Shown piece after piece: positions 45,967 to 53,248 of a stretch of DNA of 64,000 nt (the stretch's first letter is position 1; each line of letters opens with the position of its first letter). The stretch covers positions 62,001 to 126,000 of the forward strand of contig JAICKA010000002.1 in NCBI GenBank assembly GCA_025928185.1. Reading direction: 5' to 3'. The notes below the pieces were generated by a model. That model searched no databases. It saw nothing but the letters and a program-made list of their open reading frames with translations, and was not told where the DNA came from. Position numbers and translations under genes: made by a program. The stretch comes from Gemmatimonadaceae bacterium (lineage in GTDB: Bacteria > Gemmatimonadota > Gemmatimonadetes > Gemmatimonadales > Gemmatimonadaceae).

Positions 45967-46338
45967 TCACGATGCAGGGCTGATTGCGATTCGCGGAGGG
46001 TGCCGTAATGTCGCGTGAACCGTGCACAGCTCGGCCGCACGCTTCGCGGCATCGAGTCTCTTGGCGGGCAGCGACGGCCAGTTGAACCGCACGTCGAAGG
46101 TATCGATCCGGTGGGGGTCGTCGACGAAGGTCCACGAGACGTCCAACGTCAGGTCATCCGTCTGGAGTCCCGCCTGTTTGGCCCAGGCAAACATCACCGA
46201 AAAAGTACAGTATCCGAGCGCGCCGCCGATCATATGAAAGGGTGAATACGTCTGGTCCCCGGAACATGGCTCGATGATCATTGGTCCGGGGACGGGCTCC
46301 AGCCGAACGGCGTTTTCGGACAATAGCACGAGCTTCAC
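45967..46338 (-). CDS. OsmC-family protein
   Basis: 123 residues from a GTG preceded by AGGAGGAGCGCCC, a strong ribosome site. Alpha/beta OsmC-type fold with two Cys placed as in that family: SPFHMIGGALGYCTFSVM (first Cys, in a helix) and AAELCTVHATL (second Cys). Such proteins reduce organic hydroperoxides with a reactive thiol pair. The sequence is shorter than full-length OsmC (about 140 residues) at the C-terminus, but all core elements are visible. Convergent with the SDR-like gene (45 nt). Confidence 0.8.
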   Translation of the reverse strand: MKLVLLSENAVRLEPVPGPMIIEPCSGDQTYSPFHMIGGALGYCTFSVMFAWAKQAGLQTDDLTLDVSWTFVDDPHRIDTFDVRFNWPSLPAKRLDAAKRAAELCTVHATLRHPPRIAISPAS

Positions 46339-46391: not shown

Positions 46392-46412
46392 TGTTCCACC
46401 CCTGGAACGTTC
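46392..46412. promoter_or_regulatory. Dyad GTTCCA-N4-TGGAAC overlapping GGAACGTTCC
   Basis: Perfect six-base dyad GTTCCACCCCTGGAAC at 46392-46407, joined to the ten-base palindrome GGAACGTTCC (46403-46412) and a further GTTCCA. It lies about 130 nt upstream of a lipoprotein gene and looks like a site for a dimeric regulator. The regulator is unknown; no convincing sigma-54 promoter was found between site and gene. Confidence 0.5.
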
Positions 46413-46540
46413 CGTTCCACCACCCCTGCCGGGATTAAGCAGCGTGGGGCACAGCCGATAATCCGAGGTGCAGAGTGTTCTCGTCGCGGACGTGCGACAC
46501 CCATGCGCTGTACATCAATCAACTGCCGATGGAGGCTTTG

Positions 46541-47329
46541 ATGATCAAGGTAAGTAAAACCGTGTTGATTGCGCTCGTCGCGGGTTTGGCGGCGTGCAGC
46601 GACAGCACCGCACCGAATGCCCAGCATCAGGACCGATTTGACCGTTCGGGTCAGGGTTCGACGCAGGCATTGACGAGCAGCGATACCCTGCGGTTCGGTA
46701 TCACGATCGACCCGTCCCAGGTCACGCAATTCCCCCTGGGCGCCGGTAACTACATCATCTTTCCGGCGCACTCGCTCTGCGACCCGTACACGTCCACGTA
46801 CGGTGTAACGGAGTGGGACAACCCGTGCACGCCCGCGACCTCCAAGTTCACGGTCAACGTCAAGGGTTGGCTGGACGCGAGTGGCAATCCGCACCTCGAT
46901 TTCAGCCCGGGCGTCCGTTTCGTGCCCACGCTCGACCCGGCCGGCTGGGTGAACATGTCGTTCACCGACAGCTACGCCGCGCTGAATCCGTGGTACAACA
47001 TTCTGTACTGTCCCACGGTTGGCGAGAGCTGCATCAACGAAGCGTTGTCGGACCCGACGATGGCTACGGTCACTGATCCGCTCACGGGCCGTCTGACCCG
47101 CCGCGTCAAGCACTTCAGCGGGTACATGGTGGGCGCCGGTGATGCCCTCACCGACGGTGGCACGGATCTGTACACCCGCAGCTTCAATCTGTCAGCGAAA
47201 GGGCCGACTGCGGCCAGTTCGATGAACCGGTCCGCCAGGACCGGTGTGCGGGGAACGCAGTCAGGCGTGCTCGGCCGGCTCCATCAGGCCGCGCGCAAGG
47301 CTGCCGGCTATATGCTCGCTTCGGGCTGA
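46541..47329 (+). CDS. Putative lipoprotein of unknown function
   Basis: 262 residues from the ATG at 46541, preceded by GGAGGCTTTG. Signal with lipobox AGLAAC (MIKVSKTVLIALVAGLAACSDS). The mature part is polar with two Cys pairs (YIIFPAHSLCDPYTSTYGVTEWDNPCTPATSKF; YNILYCPTVGESCINEAL), which suggests two disulfides or a metal site. C-terminal basic/Ala-rich. Not recognised as a family. A terminator follows the stop. Confidence 0.7.
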   Translation: MIKVSKTVLIALVAGLAACSDSTAPNAQHQDRFDRSGQGSTQALTSSDTLRFGITIDPSQVTQFPLGAGNYIIFPAHSLCDPYTSTYGVTEWDNPCTPATSKFTVNVKGWLDASGNPHLDFSPGVRFVPTLDPAGWVNMSFTDSYAALNPWYNILYCPTVGESCINEALSDPTMATVTDPLTGRLTRRVKHFSGYMVGAGDALTDGGTDLYTRSFNLSAKGPTAASSMNRSARTGVRGTQSGVLGRLHQAARKAAGYMLASG

Positions 47330-47346
47330 TAGCTGCCGATACTACA

Positions 47347-47388
47347 GGGGGAGGCGTGCACGTCCGCACGCCTCCCCCTTTCGTTTTT
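47347..47388 (+). terminator. Strong intrinsic terminator
   Basis: Stem GGGGGAGGCGTGC / GCACGCCTCCCCC around ACGTCC, followed by TTTCGTTTTT. Placed just after the lipoprotein gene and before the giant signalling gene. Confidence 0.85.
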
Positions 47389-47429
47389 CTATTCGACCAC
47401 CCGACGTCGGGTGAGAGGTCCGAGCGACG

Positions 47430-50400
47430 ATGCAGCCCTCGGTCGACACACTGATCCAGCAGGCGCAGCTAGCGGAACGCGAAGGGCGGCGAGACGACGC
47501 TCGTTCGTTGTACGAGCGCGCACTCTATTCGCTCAAACGCTCGCAGGACGGCAAGCTCGCGTCGTCGCTGCTCCGCTGGATCGGTCGCACATATCAACTG
47601 GACGCGAACGCCGACGCGGCGCTCGACTGCCTCGAGGCCGCGATTGCGGTCGCCGAGCAGACGAACGACGGCGAGGCGGTTGGCCACGCGATCAACGTCC
47701 AGGCGATCGTGCACCAGCAACAGGGCGATCTCGATCGGGCCGAGGCGCTGTACCTCGAGGCGCGGAATCACGCGATCGACTCGGGCGAAACGCGCCTCGC
47801 GGCGATGACCGCGCAGAACCTCGGCGTGATCTCCGCCGTGCGCGGCGACCTCGAACGGACGCTTCGCTACTACCGCACCAGTCTCGTGTCCTACCGCACG
47901 CTCGGCGTCCCCAAGGACGTGCTGGGCGCGCTGAACAACATGGGCATGCTGTACACGGACCTCGAGCGGTGGGACGACGCGGTGAGCGCGTTCGAGGAAG
48001 CGATCCAGATTGCCGAAGCGCTCGGCGACATTCCGGCTCGAATTCTCCTCGAGGTCAACCGCGCCGAGCTCGAGATCGCGCGCGGCGAGTTTGCGGCCGC
48101 GCGCAAGGCGTGCGAGCTGGCGTCCTCGTTGTCCGCGCAGACGCAGGACGCGTTCGCGATCGGCGAAATCGAGAAGCATCTCGGTACCGTCGCGCGCGAG
48201 CTGGGCGAGCTGTCGGTGGCCGAGGAGCATCTCGATCGCGCGCAGAAGATCGCCGTCGAGCGCCGCGATCTGCTGCTGTCCGCGGAAACGGCGCGCGAGC
48301 ACGCGGAGCTGTGCCGCAAACAGGGTCGCCATCGCGACGCGTTGATGCACCTCAATCGCGGCCACCGCATCTTCACGCAGCTCAGCGCGAAGCGCGACCT
48401 GGCGGACATCGATCGTCGCAATGCGCGCCTCGAGCACTACTTCCTCGAAGCGGTCCGACACTGGAGCGCCTCGATTGAATCCAAGGATCGCTACACGCAG
48501 GGTCACTGCGAGCGTGTGGCCGATCTCGCCTGCGCGCTCGCCGTGCGCTCGGGCCTCGAGCAGCGCGAGCTGTTCTGGTTCCGTATCGGCGCGATCGTGC
48601 ACGACGTCGGCAAGCTGATCATCCCATCAGACATCCTGAATAAGCCGGGCAAGCTCGCGCCCGATGAGTGGGAGCTCGTCAAACGCCATCCGGTGGCCGG
48701 TGTGGAGATGCTGGCCGACATGGACTTTCCCGGCGACGTCGTGCCGATGGTGCGCTCACACCACGAGCGGTGGGACGGCCGCGGTTATCCGGATGCGCTC
48801 TCAGGCGAGCAGATCCCGCGCAGCGCCCGCATTCTCTGCGTCGCTGATGTCTACGATGCGCTGACGTCGAAGCGAAGCTACAAGGGCGCGCTCAGCCACG
48901 ACGCGGCAATGGACATCATGCGCGCCGATGTCGGTGGACAGTTCGATCCGGAATTGTTCAAGCATTTCGAGGACCTGATGCGCACCCGCACGCCATCGAT
49001 CCGGCAGCGTGCGGCGATCGAGAGCGCGGCGCCGGTGCGGATGCCGCAGCGCGAGCTGCACGTCACCGGTCCGGTGGACGACCTCACGGGTCTCGTGACG
49101 CGCGGACCGCTCATCGAAGCCGCGACGCGCATTCTCGCCGAGCGCGGGCCGTTCGCGACAGTGTCGCTGATGGTCATCGACGTCGACCATTTCAAGACTG
49201 TCAATGACTCGCACGGCCACTTGCAGGGCGACGCCGTGCTACGCGTCGTCGCCGGTACCTTGCGCGAGCTGGCGACGGCCACGGGCATCGTCGGCCGGTA
49301 CGCCGGCGACGAGTTCGTGATCCTGCTGCCGCACACAAATTTGGACGAAGCGCGCGAGCTGGCGGAGCGCATTCGCACGACGGTGCGCCGCGCGTCCGTG
49401 CCGCTGCGCGATCGTGCCGGTTCGATCTCGGTATCGCTCTCGGTAGGCGTCGCCGCCGCCCGCGCCGAGCACAAGGACTTCGAGTCGCTGTTCGCGACGA
49501 GTGACCGCGCGCTTTACGAAGCCAAGCGCCGCGGTCGTGATACCGTCGTCACGTCGGCTGACGTCGAGGAGGGTGCGCACGAGCCGGAGATCAACCTCAA
49601 GCAGTTCGTCGGCCGCGAAGAGGAGCTGCGCCGCCTGGTGCGCATCCTCGACGCGAGCATCGAAGACGGCCCGAGCGTAGTTGCGGTGACCGGCGAAGCC
49701 GGCGTCGGCAAGTCGACGCTCGTGCGACGCCTGGCGGGCGAGGTGCGCATGCGCGCCGGCTCGCTCGTCGCCGGCCGGTGCAGCGAAGCGGACGCCAAAC
49801 CGCCGTACGCGCCGTGGGCCGAAGTCATCACGGCGATTCATCAACTCGGCGTCGTGTGCCCGCGCGAATGGCGCGAGCTGCCACGCCTGGTCCCGGCGCT
49901 CTCCGAGTCGGCGGCTCCAGCCGATCCGAACGGAAATCGCTACGCGCTGTTCGACGAGATCGTGGCGTATTTGCGGCTCGCCGCGTCGGTCCGCCCGCTG
50001 GTGCTCGTGCTCGACGACATGCAGTGGTCCGACTCCGGAACGTGGGACGTGCTCGAGCACGTGATGGATCAGCTCGAGCGCGATCGCGTGCTCATCTGCC
50101 TCACGCTGCGCGCGGAAGACACGCGCGGCGCGGTGCTCGAGCGCCGCCACCGGCTGGTGCGCGACGAGCGCTTTCACGAGATCCAGCTCTCGCGGCTCAA
50201 TCCGAGCGAGCTGCGCACGTGGCTGTCCAGCGTGTTCGGCGCGGACGCGACGCGCGAGCTGGAGGAGTACCTCCTTCGCTACTCCGAGGGCAATCCGCTG
50301 CTCGCCACGCAGCTCGTGCGCATGCTGCACGAGGACGGCGTCGTGCGATATGAGCACAGCAAGTGGACGCTGCGCTCGGAACGTGACAACAATCTTCCGT

Positions 50401-52193
50401 CGGCGCTCACCGGTCTCATGGACCGGCGCCTCGAGCGCCTGTCGCCCGAAGCGCGTCGCGTGCTCAATACCGCGGCGGTGATCGGCCGCATCTTCGACAT
50501 CGACCTGGCCATGGCGGCCGGTGCGGGCGAGGAAGACGAGATTCTCGATGCGCTGGACGAAGGCATCGCGCACGCCGTCATCGAGCCGTGGTCGGAGTCG
50601 TCATCCGGAAGCCACTTCTCGTTCACGCACGGATTGCTCGTCGATGCAGTCCGCCGCGCAATCAATCCGCGTCGCGTCGCGCGCATTCACGCGCGAGTGG
50701 CGGCGGCCATGGAGGCGCGGTGCCCGGAGAACGTCGCCGAGATCGCCATCCACTACGATCGCGCCGGCATTCCGCAGAAGGCGTACGGACATGCGATGGC
50801 TGCGGGAAGCGCCGCGCTCGCCGTGTACGCACACGACGAGGCACGCAAGTTCTTCGAAGTGGCCGAACGCGCGGCGGGCGATCCGGCGGATCGTGCGCGT
50901 GCGCTGCACCACCTCGCGGAAGTCGCCGAGACGGAGAGCCGTTACGCGCTGACCGAAGAGCTGTGCGATCGCGCGCTTGCTGGTCTGGAAAACCAGGCGG
51001 ACGACCATCGGCTGCTCGCCCTGCGCCGCATGCGCGAGCGGGTCCGCGCGGTGCAGGGTCAGCCGGCCTCGGAAACGATTGCGGCCTGCCGCGAGCTGCT
51101 CGTCAAGGCGCGCGAGCTGAAGCTCGCCGGCGAGGAAGCGGCAATCCTGAACATGATCTCGATGTATCAGGGCCGACTCGGCGAGTGGCGCGAAGCGGAA
51201 GAGGTGGCGAGCGAAGCCGTGGCGGCCGCGGAACACGCGAATGATCCGCGCCTGCTCGCGGAAGCGCTCACCCGACTCGGCATGTCGATGATGGACCGTC
51301 GCTCCGAGGAGTCGACGGACTACTATCACCGCGCACTGACGCTCTTCCGCGAAGTGGGTGATCGGCTCGGCGAGGCGAAGTGCTACATCAACATCGGCAT
51401 CATCCATCACCGCGCCGGTGAGGCGACCGCGGCCGAGGCCGCGTTCGATCACGCACTGGAAGCGGCGAACAGCGCGCACGCGCTGGACATTGCCGGTCTC
51501 GCCGCCTTGAATCTCGGCGTGCTCTATCTGCGCCGCGGCCAGCGCGATCTCGCCACTGAACGCTTTGGTGAGGCGCTCAAGCGCTTCACGGAAGCGGGCA
51601 GCGAGTCGCATCGTTTGGCGACGCTGTACAACATGGCAAACCTGGCGCGCGAGACCGAAGACTGGGCAACGGCTTCCGAGCTGTACGACCAGGTGGTGGC
51701 GGTTGCGTCGCGCATCGGCCAGCCGGACATCGAGCTCGGGGCGAAGGCGGGTCAGGCGCTCGCGGCGCTCGCTGTCGGCGCACGGTCGGTCGCCGAGGAT
51801 GCGATGCGGTGGATCCGCACGAACGTCGAGCCGCGTCCGGACTGGTGGTTCCAGGGACGCGACATGGTCGACGCGCTCCGCGTGCGTCTCGCGGCGGATC
51901 GCGGCGACGATGCGCACGCACTTCGATTGCTCCACGAGGCGGTCGACATCGCGGGGCAGCACGACATGTACGTCGCCGCGTATCTCGTGGCCGAGTGTGC
52001 GCCTTCGCTGCTGCGCTGCGGCGACGGCCTGCTCGAGTTGATCGAACGGATCACGCCGGATGTCGAGGCGCTCGGCTTCGCCGGCGTCGCCGAGCGGCTC
52101 GCGTCGCTCCGCGTCGCGCTTGGTGCCGCCACGCAGAACATCAACCCGCCGGGCCTTGCCGCAACATCGGCTGGCCTGACGTCGGCCGCGTGA
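47430..52193 (+). CDS. Giant signalling protein: TPR, HD-GYP, GGDEF, STAND-type ATPase, TPR
   Basis: 1587 residues in one frame. Parts in order: N-terminal TPR-like helices (about 1-335, repeats with ALDCLEAAIAVAEQTNDGEAVGHA); HD-GYP domain with HDVGK near 391 and DGRGYP near 450, the fold that hydrolyses cyclic di-GMP; GGDEF domain near 545-700 with AGDEF near 623 and DVDHFKTVNDSHGHLQGD, the fold that makes cyclic di-GMP; ATPase domain with Walker A TGEAGVGKST near 754 and Walker B VLVLDDMQW near 860, like the AAA_16/STAND class; then TPR repeats to about 1560. It therefore has opposite c-di-GMP activities plus an ATP-driven switch and a large protein-binding scaffold. Its stop overlaps the next gene (GTGA). 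No membrane segment. Confidence 0.9.
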   Translation: MQPSVDTLIQQAQLAEREGRRDDARSLYERALYSLKRSQDGKLASSLLRWIGRTYQLDANADAALDCLEAAIAVAEQTNDGEAVGHAINVQAIVHQQQGDLDRAEALYLEARNHAIDSGETRLAAMTAQNLGVISAVRGDLERTLRYYRTSLVSYRTLGVPKDVLGALNNMGMLYTDLERWDDAVSAFEEAIQIAEALGDIPARILLEVNRAELEIARGEFAAARKACELASSLSAQTQDAFAIGEIEKHLGTVARELGELSVAEEHLDRAQKIAVERRDLLLSAETAREHAELCRKQGRHRDALMHLNRGHRIFTQLSAKRDLADIDRRNARLEHYFLEAVRHWSASIESKDRYTQGHCERVADLACALAVRSGLEQRELFWFRIGAIVHDVGKLIIPSDILNKPGKLAPDEWELVKRHPVAGVEMLADMDFPGDVVPMVRSHHERWDGRGYPDALSGEQIPRSARILCVADVYDALTSKRSYKGALSHDAAMDIMRADVGGQFDPELFKHFEDLMRTRTPSIRQRAAIESAAPVRMPQRELHVTGPVDDLTGLVTRGPLIEAATRILAERGPFATVSLMVIDVDHFKTVNDSHGHLQGDAVLRVVAGTLRELATATGIVGRYAGDEFVILLPHTNLDEARELAERIRTTVRRASVPLRDRAGSISVSLSVGVAAARAEHKDFESLFATSDRALYEAKRRGRDTVVTSADVEEGAHEPEINLKQFVGREEELRRLVRILDASIEDGPSVVAVTGEAGVGKSTLVRRLAGEVRMRAGSLVAGRCSEADAKPPYAPWAEVITAIHQLGVVCPREWRELPRLVPALSESAAPADPNGNRYALFDEIVAYLRLAASVRPLVLVLDDMQWSDSGTWDVLEHVMDQLERDRVLICLTLRAEDTRGAVLERRHRLVRDERFHEIQLSRLNPSELRTWLSSVFGADATRELEEYLLRYSEGNPLLATQLVRMLHEDGVVRYEHSKWTLRSERDNNLPSALTGLMDRRLERLSPEARRVLNTAAVIGRIFDIDLAMAAGAGEEDEILDALDEGIAHAVIEPWSESSSGSHFSFTHGLLVDAVRRAINPRRVARIHARVAAAMEARCPENVAEIAIHYDRAGIPQKAYGHAMAAGSAALAVYAHDEARKFFEVAERAAGDPADRARALHHLAEVAETESRYALTEELCDRALAGLENQADDHRLLALRRMRERVRAVQGQPASETIAACRELLVKARELKLAGEEAAILNMISMYQGRLGEWREAEEVASEAVAAAEHANDPRLLAEALTRLGMSMMDRRSEESTDYYHRALTLFREVGDRLGEAKCYINIGIIHHRAGEATAAEAAFDHALEAANSAHALDIAGLAALNLGVLYLRRGQRDLATERFGEALKRFTEAGSESHRLATLYNMANLARETEDWATASELYDQVVAVASRIGQPDIELGAKAGQALAALAVGARSVAEDAMRWIRTNVEPRPDWWFQGRDMVDALRVRLAADRGDDAHALRLLHEAVDIAGQHDMYVAAYLVAECAPSLLRCGDGLLELIERITPDVEALGFAGVAERLASLRVALGAATQNINPPGLAATSAGLTSAA

Positions 52194-53248
52194 CGGTGCC
52201 CGATGCTGAACTACGGCAGGGAATCGTGACGAATCCCGCATCGATCCGGCCGACGCCGGTCGGCACCGACGCGCACGGCGGCCACGAATTTTCCGCCGTG
52301 GTGGCCGAGAGCCACGCCATGCGCCACGCGATCCACATGGCGCGTCGCATTGCCACGACGCACGTGCGGGCACTGCTGCTCGCCGGTGAAGCAGGTACCG
52401 GCAAGGAGCTGATGGCTCGCTGCATTCACAACGCGGGCCCGAACGCCAACGCGCCGTTCGTCTCGGTGAACTGTGCGTCGATTCCCGCGCCGTTGCTCGA
52501 TGTCGAGTTGTTCGGAACGAATCCAACGCGACACGACATGTCGCGCAAGGTCGGCGTGCTCGAGCTCACCGGTCGCGGCACCGTGTTTCTCGATGAAGTC
52601 GGCGAGATGCCGCTGGCGTTGCAGGATCGACTGCTGCGCACGCTCGAGGAATACGTGATTCCGCTTCGAGGCGCCGAGTTCGATCATCCGGTGCATTGCC
52701 GCGTGATCGCGGCGAGCAAGACGCGGCTCGAGGATCGGGTCGCCTCCGGCGCGTTCCGCGAGTCGCTGCTGGCGCGACTGTCGGTGCTGCGCATCGAGCT
52801 GCCGCCGCTCCGCGAGCGCGACGAGGACGCGCGGCTGATCGCCGAGCATCTGCTGGCCGAGGCCACGCGGCTGCAGGGCGCTCCGCATCGCAAGATCGGG
52901 CTCGACGCGGCAGCCATTCTGCGGTCGCACCGCTGGCCCGGCAACGTTCGCGAGTTGAAGCATGTGATCGAACGCGCGCAAGTAATTTGCGACGGTTCGC
53001 TGATTGGTGCGGAGCACCTCTCGATCAATCAGCGCCGCTCCGGTGCGCGCGCGGTGCGCGGCACGGCGGCGTTCGCGGAGATCCGCATTCCGTCCGACGG
53101 CAAGCCGCTGCGCGACATCGAGCGCGAGGCGCTCGAGCTCACGTTGCAGCTCACGGACAACAATCAGAGTGCAGCGGCGCGAATGCTGGCGATCTCCCGG
53201 CCGACGCTGCTCCGCAAGCTGCGTTCGTTCGGCCTGGCCAGAGAGTAG
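52190..53248 (+). CDS. Sigma-54-activator-like AAA+ protein lacking the GAFTGA loop
   Basis: 352 residues from a GTG overlapping the upstream stop (GTG at 52196 is also possible). AAA+ of the NtrC type: VVAESHAMRHAIHMARRIATTHVRALLLAGEAGTGKELMARCIH, FVSVNCASIPAPLLDVELFG, Walker B GRGTVFLDEVGEMPLALQ, the LPPLRERDEDARLIAEHLL region and SHRWPGNVRELKHVIERAQVI, then a C-terminal Fis-like HTH (LELTLQLTDNNQSAAARMLAISRPTLLRKL). The segment after VELFG reads TNPTRHDMSRKVG rather than HxKGAFTGA, so the sigma-54 contact loop is missing. No receiver domain. It probably depends on its partner protein for input and does not use standard sigma-54 contact. Confidence 0.85.
   Translation: MTVPDAELRQGIVTNPASIRPTPVGTDAHGGHEFSAVVAESHAMRHAIHMARRIATTHVRALLLAGEAGTGKELMARCIHNAGPNANAPFVSVNCASIPAPLLDVELFGTNPTRHDMSRKVGVLELTGRGTVFLDEVGEMPLALQDRLLRTLEEYVIPLRGAEFDHPVHCRVIAASKTRLEDRVASGAFRESLLARLSVLRIELPPLRERDEDARLIAEHLLAEATRLQGAPHRKIGLDAAAILRSHRWPGNVRELKHVIERAQVICDGSLIGAEHLSINQRRSGARAVRGTAAFAEIRIPSDGKPLRDIEREALELTLQLTDNNQSAAARMLAISRPTLLRKLRSFGLARE

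Follow-up and report, generated by a model that had tools for sequence, protein, structure and literature searches.

The window examined here is a stretch of 64,000 nucleotides (nt) from a Gemmatimonadaceae bacterium (assembly GCA_025928185.1, contig JAICKA010000002.1, positions 62,001 to 126,000), which lies on contig C146 of a genome of 3.71 Mb in 288 contigs. On its forward strand, a gene for a small exported protein is followed by a gene for a giant protein with predicted domains for cyclic di-GMP (c-di-GMP) turnover and then by a gene for an NtrC-type enhancer-binding protein (EBP), in which the GAFTGA loop that contacts sigma-54 has been replaced. The features on which our argument rests are collected in Table 1.

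Table 1. Features of the EBP locus, in positions of the window; the loss clade is the GAFTGA-less EBPs of the genus.
Feature	Position	Strand	Remarks
Putative operator TGGAACGTTCCGTTCCA	46403..46419	+	perfect TGNAAC-N5-GTTNCA
Sigma-28-like -10 element GCCGATAAT	46454..46462	+	exactly 34 nt downstream of the operator
Small exported protein, putative target gene	46541..47329	+	lipobox-like LAAC; C-terminal HFSGY
GCCGATACT element	47335..47343	+	just before the giant gene
Giant protein, TPR - HD-GYP - GGDEF - AAA_16/STAND - TPR	47430..52193	+	1587 amino acids
EBP without GAFTGA and without receiver	52226..53248	+	340 amino acids, counted from the conserved GTG start
Walker A GEAGTGKE	52385..52408	+	intact
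L1 loop TNPTRHDMSRK	52517..52549	+	replaces the GAFTGA segment
Walker B VFLDE	52583..52597	+	intact
Fis-type helix-turn-helix NQSAAARMLAISRPTLLRKLR	53162..53224	+	90% identity within the loss clade

The EBP carries the elements that the original prediction had recognized in it, from Walker A to the Fis-like DNA-binding helix. Profile searches identified the domains Sigma54_activat (148 bits), AAA_lid_14 and HTH_8, and Walker A, the switch Asn, Walker B (FLDE), both Arg fingers (FRES.LARL) and WPGNVREL are all intact. As had also been predicted, a domain search of the EBP found no receiver or other N-terminal sensor domain. What sets this Sigma54_activat AAA+ protein apart is that neither GAFTGA nor a working variant of it is present in L1: where its relatives read ELFGHERGAFTGA..RK, the EBP reads ELFG-TNPTRHDMSRK and is two residues shorter. 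A structure model was built from an alignment of 37 diverse EBPs, for which we used generic EBPs at 32-43% identity among the matches listed in the contig search. It predicts a normal AAA+ fold plus helix-turn-helix (mean pLDDT 89.3), in which L1 forms a short turn of lower confidence, and the structures nearest to it are NtrX, NtrC1 and FleQ. The original prediction had named a functional sigma-54 contact loop elsewhere in the structure as evidence that would count against loss of the contact, and no such replacement loop was seen in the model.

The start of the gene had to be moved. All four orthologues begin with MTAPS..., matching the GTG at 52226, which is preceded by GGCAGGGA, so that the GTG at 52190 chosen initially would add 12 extra codons. 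Between the stop of the giant gene and the conserved start there are 32 nt in the window and 107-117 nt in the other genomes. Given this common start and these unequal gaps, the overlap of start and stop that had been read as a sign of coupling between the two genes is neither conserved nor likely real, and we dropped it from the argument.

We surveyed 288 genomes of the order and found four orthologues of the EBP at 63-76% identity, all in the same genus, with the next relatives at 46-51%, including a copy on contig C109 of the source genome. The GAFTGA motif is absent in all five genus genomes carrying the gene, and the loss is thus not a product of chance or sequencing error; the other subfamily members examined (30 of 30) have GAFTGA, GAFTDA or GAFTSA. 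Most of the GAFTGA-positive relatives (L023-L046) carry GAFTDA rather than GAFTGA itself. In a tree computed without the loop columns, the loss clade (support 100/100) fell within the GAFT-bearing subfamily (100/98), from which a long stem of 0.79 changes per column separates it. Outside the loop, the ratio of nonsynonymous to synonymous rates (dN/dS) between genus orthologues was 0.12-0.31; within L1, the proportions of nonsynonymous and synonymous differences were about equal, and identity was 33% vs 76% elsewhere. A drifting loop alongside a constrained ATPase core and helix-turn-helix indicates an old, maintained loss: the loop was lost once, before the genus diversified, and is without detectable constraint, while the remainder of the protein is held by purifying selection. 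The recent decay that had been raised as a possibility is therefore borne out as far as relatives with an intact motif exist, but not in its timing.

Upstream of the exported-protein gene, the putative operator is followed by GCCGATAAT, whose GCCGATA resembles the -10 element of E. coli FliA (sigma-28). When eleven genomes were searched with at most one mismatch, the unit dyad-N34-GCCGATAAT occurred in eight places in four genomes (one in the source genome, one in G217, three each in G218 and G219), compared with none for a reversed-pattern control. Every one of these units precedes an exported-protein gene beside a giant, and the dyad is centred near -57 of the GCCGATAAT promoter. In most copies a weaker second dyad, recognized by eye, abuts the operator 20 bp upstream and is perfect but for one base in a G218 copy, an arrangement that would fit two dimers side by side. 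A weight-matrix scan, based on the literature consensus, found no -24/-12 promoter at the GAFTGA-less loci, whether before the exported-protein gene, the giant or the EBP. Where a giant stands without an EBP, the exported-protein gene has no dyad nearby. The copy number of the genes also varies within the genus: G219 has three tandem exported-protein genes, and G218 (L048) has a tandem pair of giant genes that are about 77% identical in parts, both following exported-protein genes with the operator-promoter unit.

The GAFTGA-positive relatives have a different promoter arrangement. Near-perfect -24/-12 promoters lie 11-113 nt before the first gene of their operons (an exported-protein gene or the EBP), scoring 16.0 in four paralogue loci of the genus, 14.7 in two g8 loci and 13.3 in two g5 loci; a background of about 625,000 strand-bases contained no score of at least 14.5. 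Searches of upstream regions located TGNAAC-N5-GTTNCA at the GAFTGA-less loci and at GAFTGA-positive loci of g5, g8 and g35, and TGNAAA-N5-TTTNCA at the paralogue operons and in g2. Of 18 dyads at GAFTGA-positive loci, 8 begin at a distance of 78-81 nt upstream of a -24 element, with the centre near -98 (binomial tail 2.6e-19, for a spacing window picked after the data had been seen). The recognition helix SRPTL.RK and the TGNAAC dyad are common to the GAFTGA-less clade and GAFTGA-positive relatives, and SRPTLAKK-like or SRPTLARI helices accompany the TGNAAA dyad; these matching pairs support binding of the dyad by the EBP but do not prove it. The exported protein of the window could not be established as a homologue of those in the GAFTGA-positive operons, the C-terminal HFSGY being all that they have in common. 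As for the sigma factors, the source genome encodes RpoN (214 bits), several GAFTGA-bearing EBPs and a FliA above the NCBIfam cut-off; no flagellin was found in it despite FliA.

Together, these data suggest that a former sigma-54 activator has probably become a local, promoter-proximal regulator of the sigma-28-like promoter of the exported-protein gene or genes beside the giant. Its ancestor would have been a sigma-54 activator of an operon with an exported protein, the EBP and a c-di-GMP enzyme, with the same kind of dyad around position -98 relative to a -24/-12 promoter, and loss of the loop would have gone together with the exchange of that promoter for the sigma-28-like one. The EBP, as an ATP-binding oligomer, would now bind TGNAAC-N5-GTTNCA near -57 and regulate, probably activate, the small exported-protein genes, with the giant acting as sensor on the EBP by contact or through c-di-GMP; where the dyad lies speaks for activation rather than repression. 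The expectation that the protein would fail at sigma-54 promoters in the classical way is supported by the clade-wide absence of the loop, the lack of another such loop in the model and a locus without a -24/-12 promoter. Among the alternatives offered at the outset (a sigma-70-acting regulator, a repressor or a remodelling factor), the fixed distance of the dyad from a sigma-28-like promoter best supports the sigma-70-family option, and we keep the others as rivals. More tentative is the idea of a closed module, in which the converted activator, its operator shifted from -98 to -57, has the exported protein as its sole kind of target and is controlled by the giant as its sensor; we hold this to be somewhat less likely than not.

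Several observations weigh against conversion to a proximal regulator. Binding of the dyad by the EBP is proposed from their association. The -35 boxes read TTCA (TTAA in the window) vs TAAA for E. coli FliA, so that assigning the GCCGATAAT promoter to a FliA-like sigma factor is a guess. Sensor I of the EBP is altered from TN to SK. G220 has kept the EBP and the giant, with the exported-protein gene and the dyad both absent in the region examined. Finally, the bare dyad with one mismatch occurs 40 times in the source genome vs 47 times for the control, and in related genomes its perfect matches are only modestly more numerous than those of the control; at one mismatch, the counts do not support a regulon of the bare dyad across the genus.

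If the EBP were instead a repressor, occupancy of the dyad beside the -35 would shut off the GCCGATAAT promoter, possibly together with the divergent gene at 45967-46338, until released on the giant's signal. The window operator does lie between divergent genes, and GAFTGA-less EBPs can repress, Caulobacter NtrC both activating and repressing (PMC10274813). However, about 34 nt separate the end of the dyad from the -10 downstream of it, so that it lies clear of the -35/-10 core at a spacing fixed in eight sites, which is more typical of activators, and the extra operator copies of G218 and G219 are not beside the divergent gene; we regard repression as unlikely. The association between protein and dyad could also mislead: the dyad and the GCCGATAAT promoter might belong to another regulator and the EBP be an AAA+ remodeller of a different complex, such as the giant, as its retention in G220 would allow. 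This is a distinctly improbable account, as in several genera the dyad goes with EBP loci, whereas it is missing near the exported-protein gene of EBP-less giant loci, and the helix-turn-helix is among the most conserved parts of the EBP.

The remaining alternatives concern the relationship of the EBP with sigma-54. The source genome holds the C109 paralogue, which is GAFTGA-positive, 49% identical and adjoins a TPR-HD-GYP gene, and a decaying or dominant-negative EBP might hexamerize or bind DNA and merely interfere with it, a course that the long stem branch of the loss clade would suit. Purifying selection and genus-wide intact ATPase and helix-turn-helix motifs argue against such decay; moreover, the paralogue operons carry TGNAAA-N5-TTTNCA and the paralogue has the helix SRPTLAKK or similar, so the two proteins are not expected to share sites, and we give this account very little weight. 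Continued activation of sigma-54 through a non-canonical loop seems barely credible: RpoN is present in the genome and the AAA+ core is intact, but the segment drifts freely with no conserved replacement, and the GAFTGA-less loci lack the -24/-12 sites that their relatives have.

The proposed role of the giant rests on its neighbourhood. It contains HDVGK (read from the translation, in the window) and HHERWDGRGYP in its HD-GYP domain and AGDEF in its GGDEF domain, where no RxxD I-site was seen, and the HD-GYP, Walker and AGDEF motifs are intact in all five genus genomes. It adjoins the EBP in all five, within a conserved order of giant, EBP, agmatine deiminase and carbon-nitrogen hydrolase. 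In other genera, the gene next to the EBP codes for a TPR-HD-GYP protein, often together with an upstream TPR gene, or for a GGDEF protein. With a loose cut-off that admitted partial matches, members of the giant family were detected in 20 of the family's 35 genera; an adjacent EBP was absent at 19 of 20 further giant loci examined and present at one, and at many of these loci a homologue of the small exported protein is encoded upstream. This survey indicates that the EBP is associated with c-di-GMP enzymes generally; its association with the giant extends to this genus and one other (g2). Thus, the paired system of the original prediction holds as linkage within the genus and g2 and as a subfamily found beside HD-GYP or GGDEF genes, but a strict pair of the two gene families was dropped as a general rule. 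Control of the EBP by the giant, through its TPR/STAND part or through c-di-GMP turnover, is plausible from this adjacency. The family of giants (about 1590 amino acids) is widespread, and the upstream HFSGY-type exported protein is a more constant partner of it than the EBP.

Other elements recur around these genes. At flagellin loci of G218 and G219, in the same genus, GCCGATACT lies upstream of flagellin. In the window it follows the exported-protein gene and is itself directly followed by a perfect 14-bp hairpin (47346-47379) and a T-rich tract (z = -4.5 for the stretch 47330-47430); the same pair precedes the giant in G217, G218 and G219, and at 47335-47379 it may be a terminator, a leader or both. 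The gap between giant and EBP also holds GCCGATACT in four genomes (L048, L049, L050 and L051), and in the window, where this gap has shortened, it is degenerate (GCCCGATGCT). Perfect TGNAAC-N5-GTTNCA dyads without GCCGATA stand shortly before genes of a different family of exported proteins, with the pattern QRATQ...F.V (L187, L189 and L190, at G219:C1 and G218:C9), possibly as a second regulon or as sites of another regulator. A second loop loss in the source genome affects an EBP with a receiver (L011, contig C48, 1048-2439, minus strand), which has ESGSPSGPGARR at the expected place of GAFTGA and a PAS-type histidine kinase as its neighbour; this loss is independent.

How a factor can abandon sigma-54 and still keep its target is seldom open to view. 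In this genus, a direct test of the change from sigma-54 enhancer to proximal regulator is possible, because close relatives exist with and without the loop, the dyad is conserved and the operator stands at a fixed distance from each of the two promoter types. The locus also offers an operator, a promoter and a target gene as the candidate output of the widespread, unstudied TPR-HD-GYP-GGDEF-STAND family. Like PspF, with which it shares 35% identity over the AAA+ domain, the EBP is a receiver-less protein of AAA+ and Fis-type helix-turn-helix; PspF has GAFTGA and activates sigma-54 promoters, and the motif is absent in the EBP.

GAFTGA-less EBPs as such are already known: R. capsulatus and Caulobacter NtrC, TyrR, DhaR, HupR and VpsR act on sigma-70 promoters (PMC10274813, PMC3162934), and in the literature searched we found no described case of one paired with FliA. 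TyrR, DhaR and HupR are likewise EBP homologues without a functional GAFTGA and sigma-70 dependent (PMC3162934). Unlike our EBP, they carry sensory or receiver domains; they are only distant relatives, and the EBP scores far below the cut-offs of the TyrR and DhaR models. VpsR, without GAFTGA (PMC3162934), and FleQ, active at both sigma-54 and sigma-70 promoters (PMC10723142), resemble it in linking an EBP fold to c-di-GMP (PDB 7v2b, 8p53), by which control of FleQ is established (PMC10723142). The EBP lacks their receiver-like domain, and its link to c-di-GMP is through the gene neighbourhood. Direct binding in the manner of FleQ is not supported, as alignment with the FleQ c-di-GMP residues R144, R185, N186, E330 and R334 (PMC8335546) matched R185 and R334, the other three of five being S, C and H. 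Closest in kind are the NtrC proteins of Caulobacter and Rhodobacter capsulatus, also derived NtrC-family AAA+ proteins with an L1 deletion that are reported to act on sigma-70 promoters; in Caulobacter, the loss of GAFTGA is likewise at genus level with ATP motifs kept (PMC10274813). These have a receiver and a cognate kinase, whereas the EBP has neither and adjoins a c-di-GMP giant. What sets the present case apart is the unusually complete evolutionary evidence: for the EBP, unlike for these NtrC proteins, the matching shift in promoter and binding site is visible through its GAFTGA-positive relatives.

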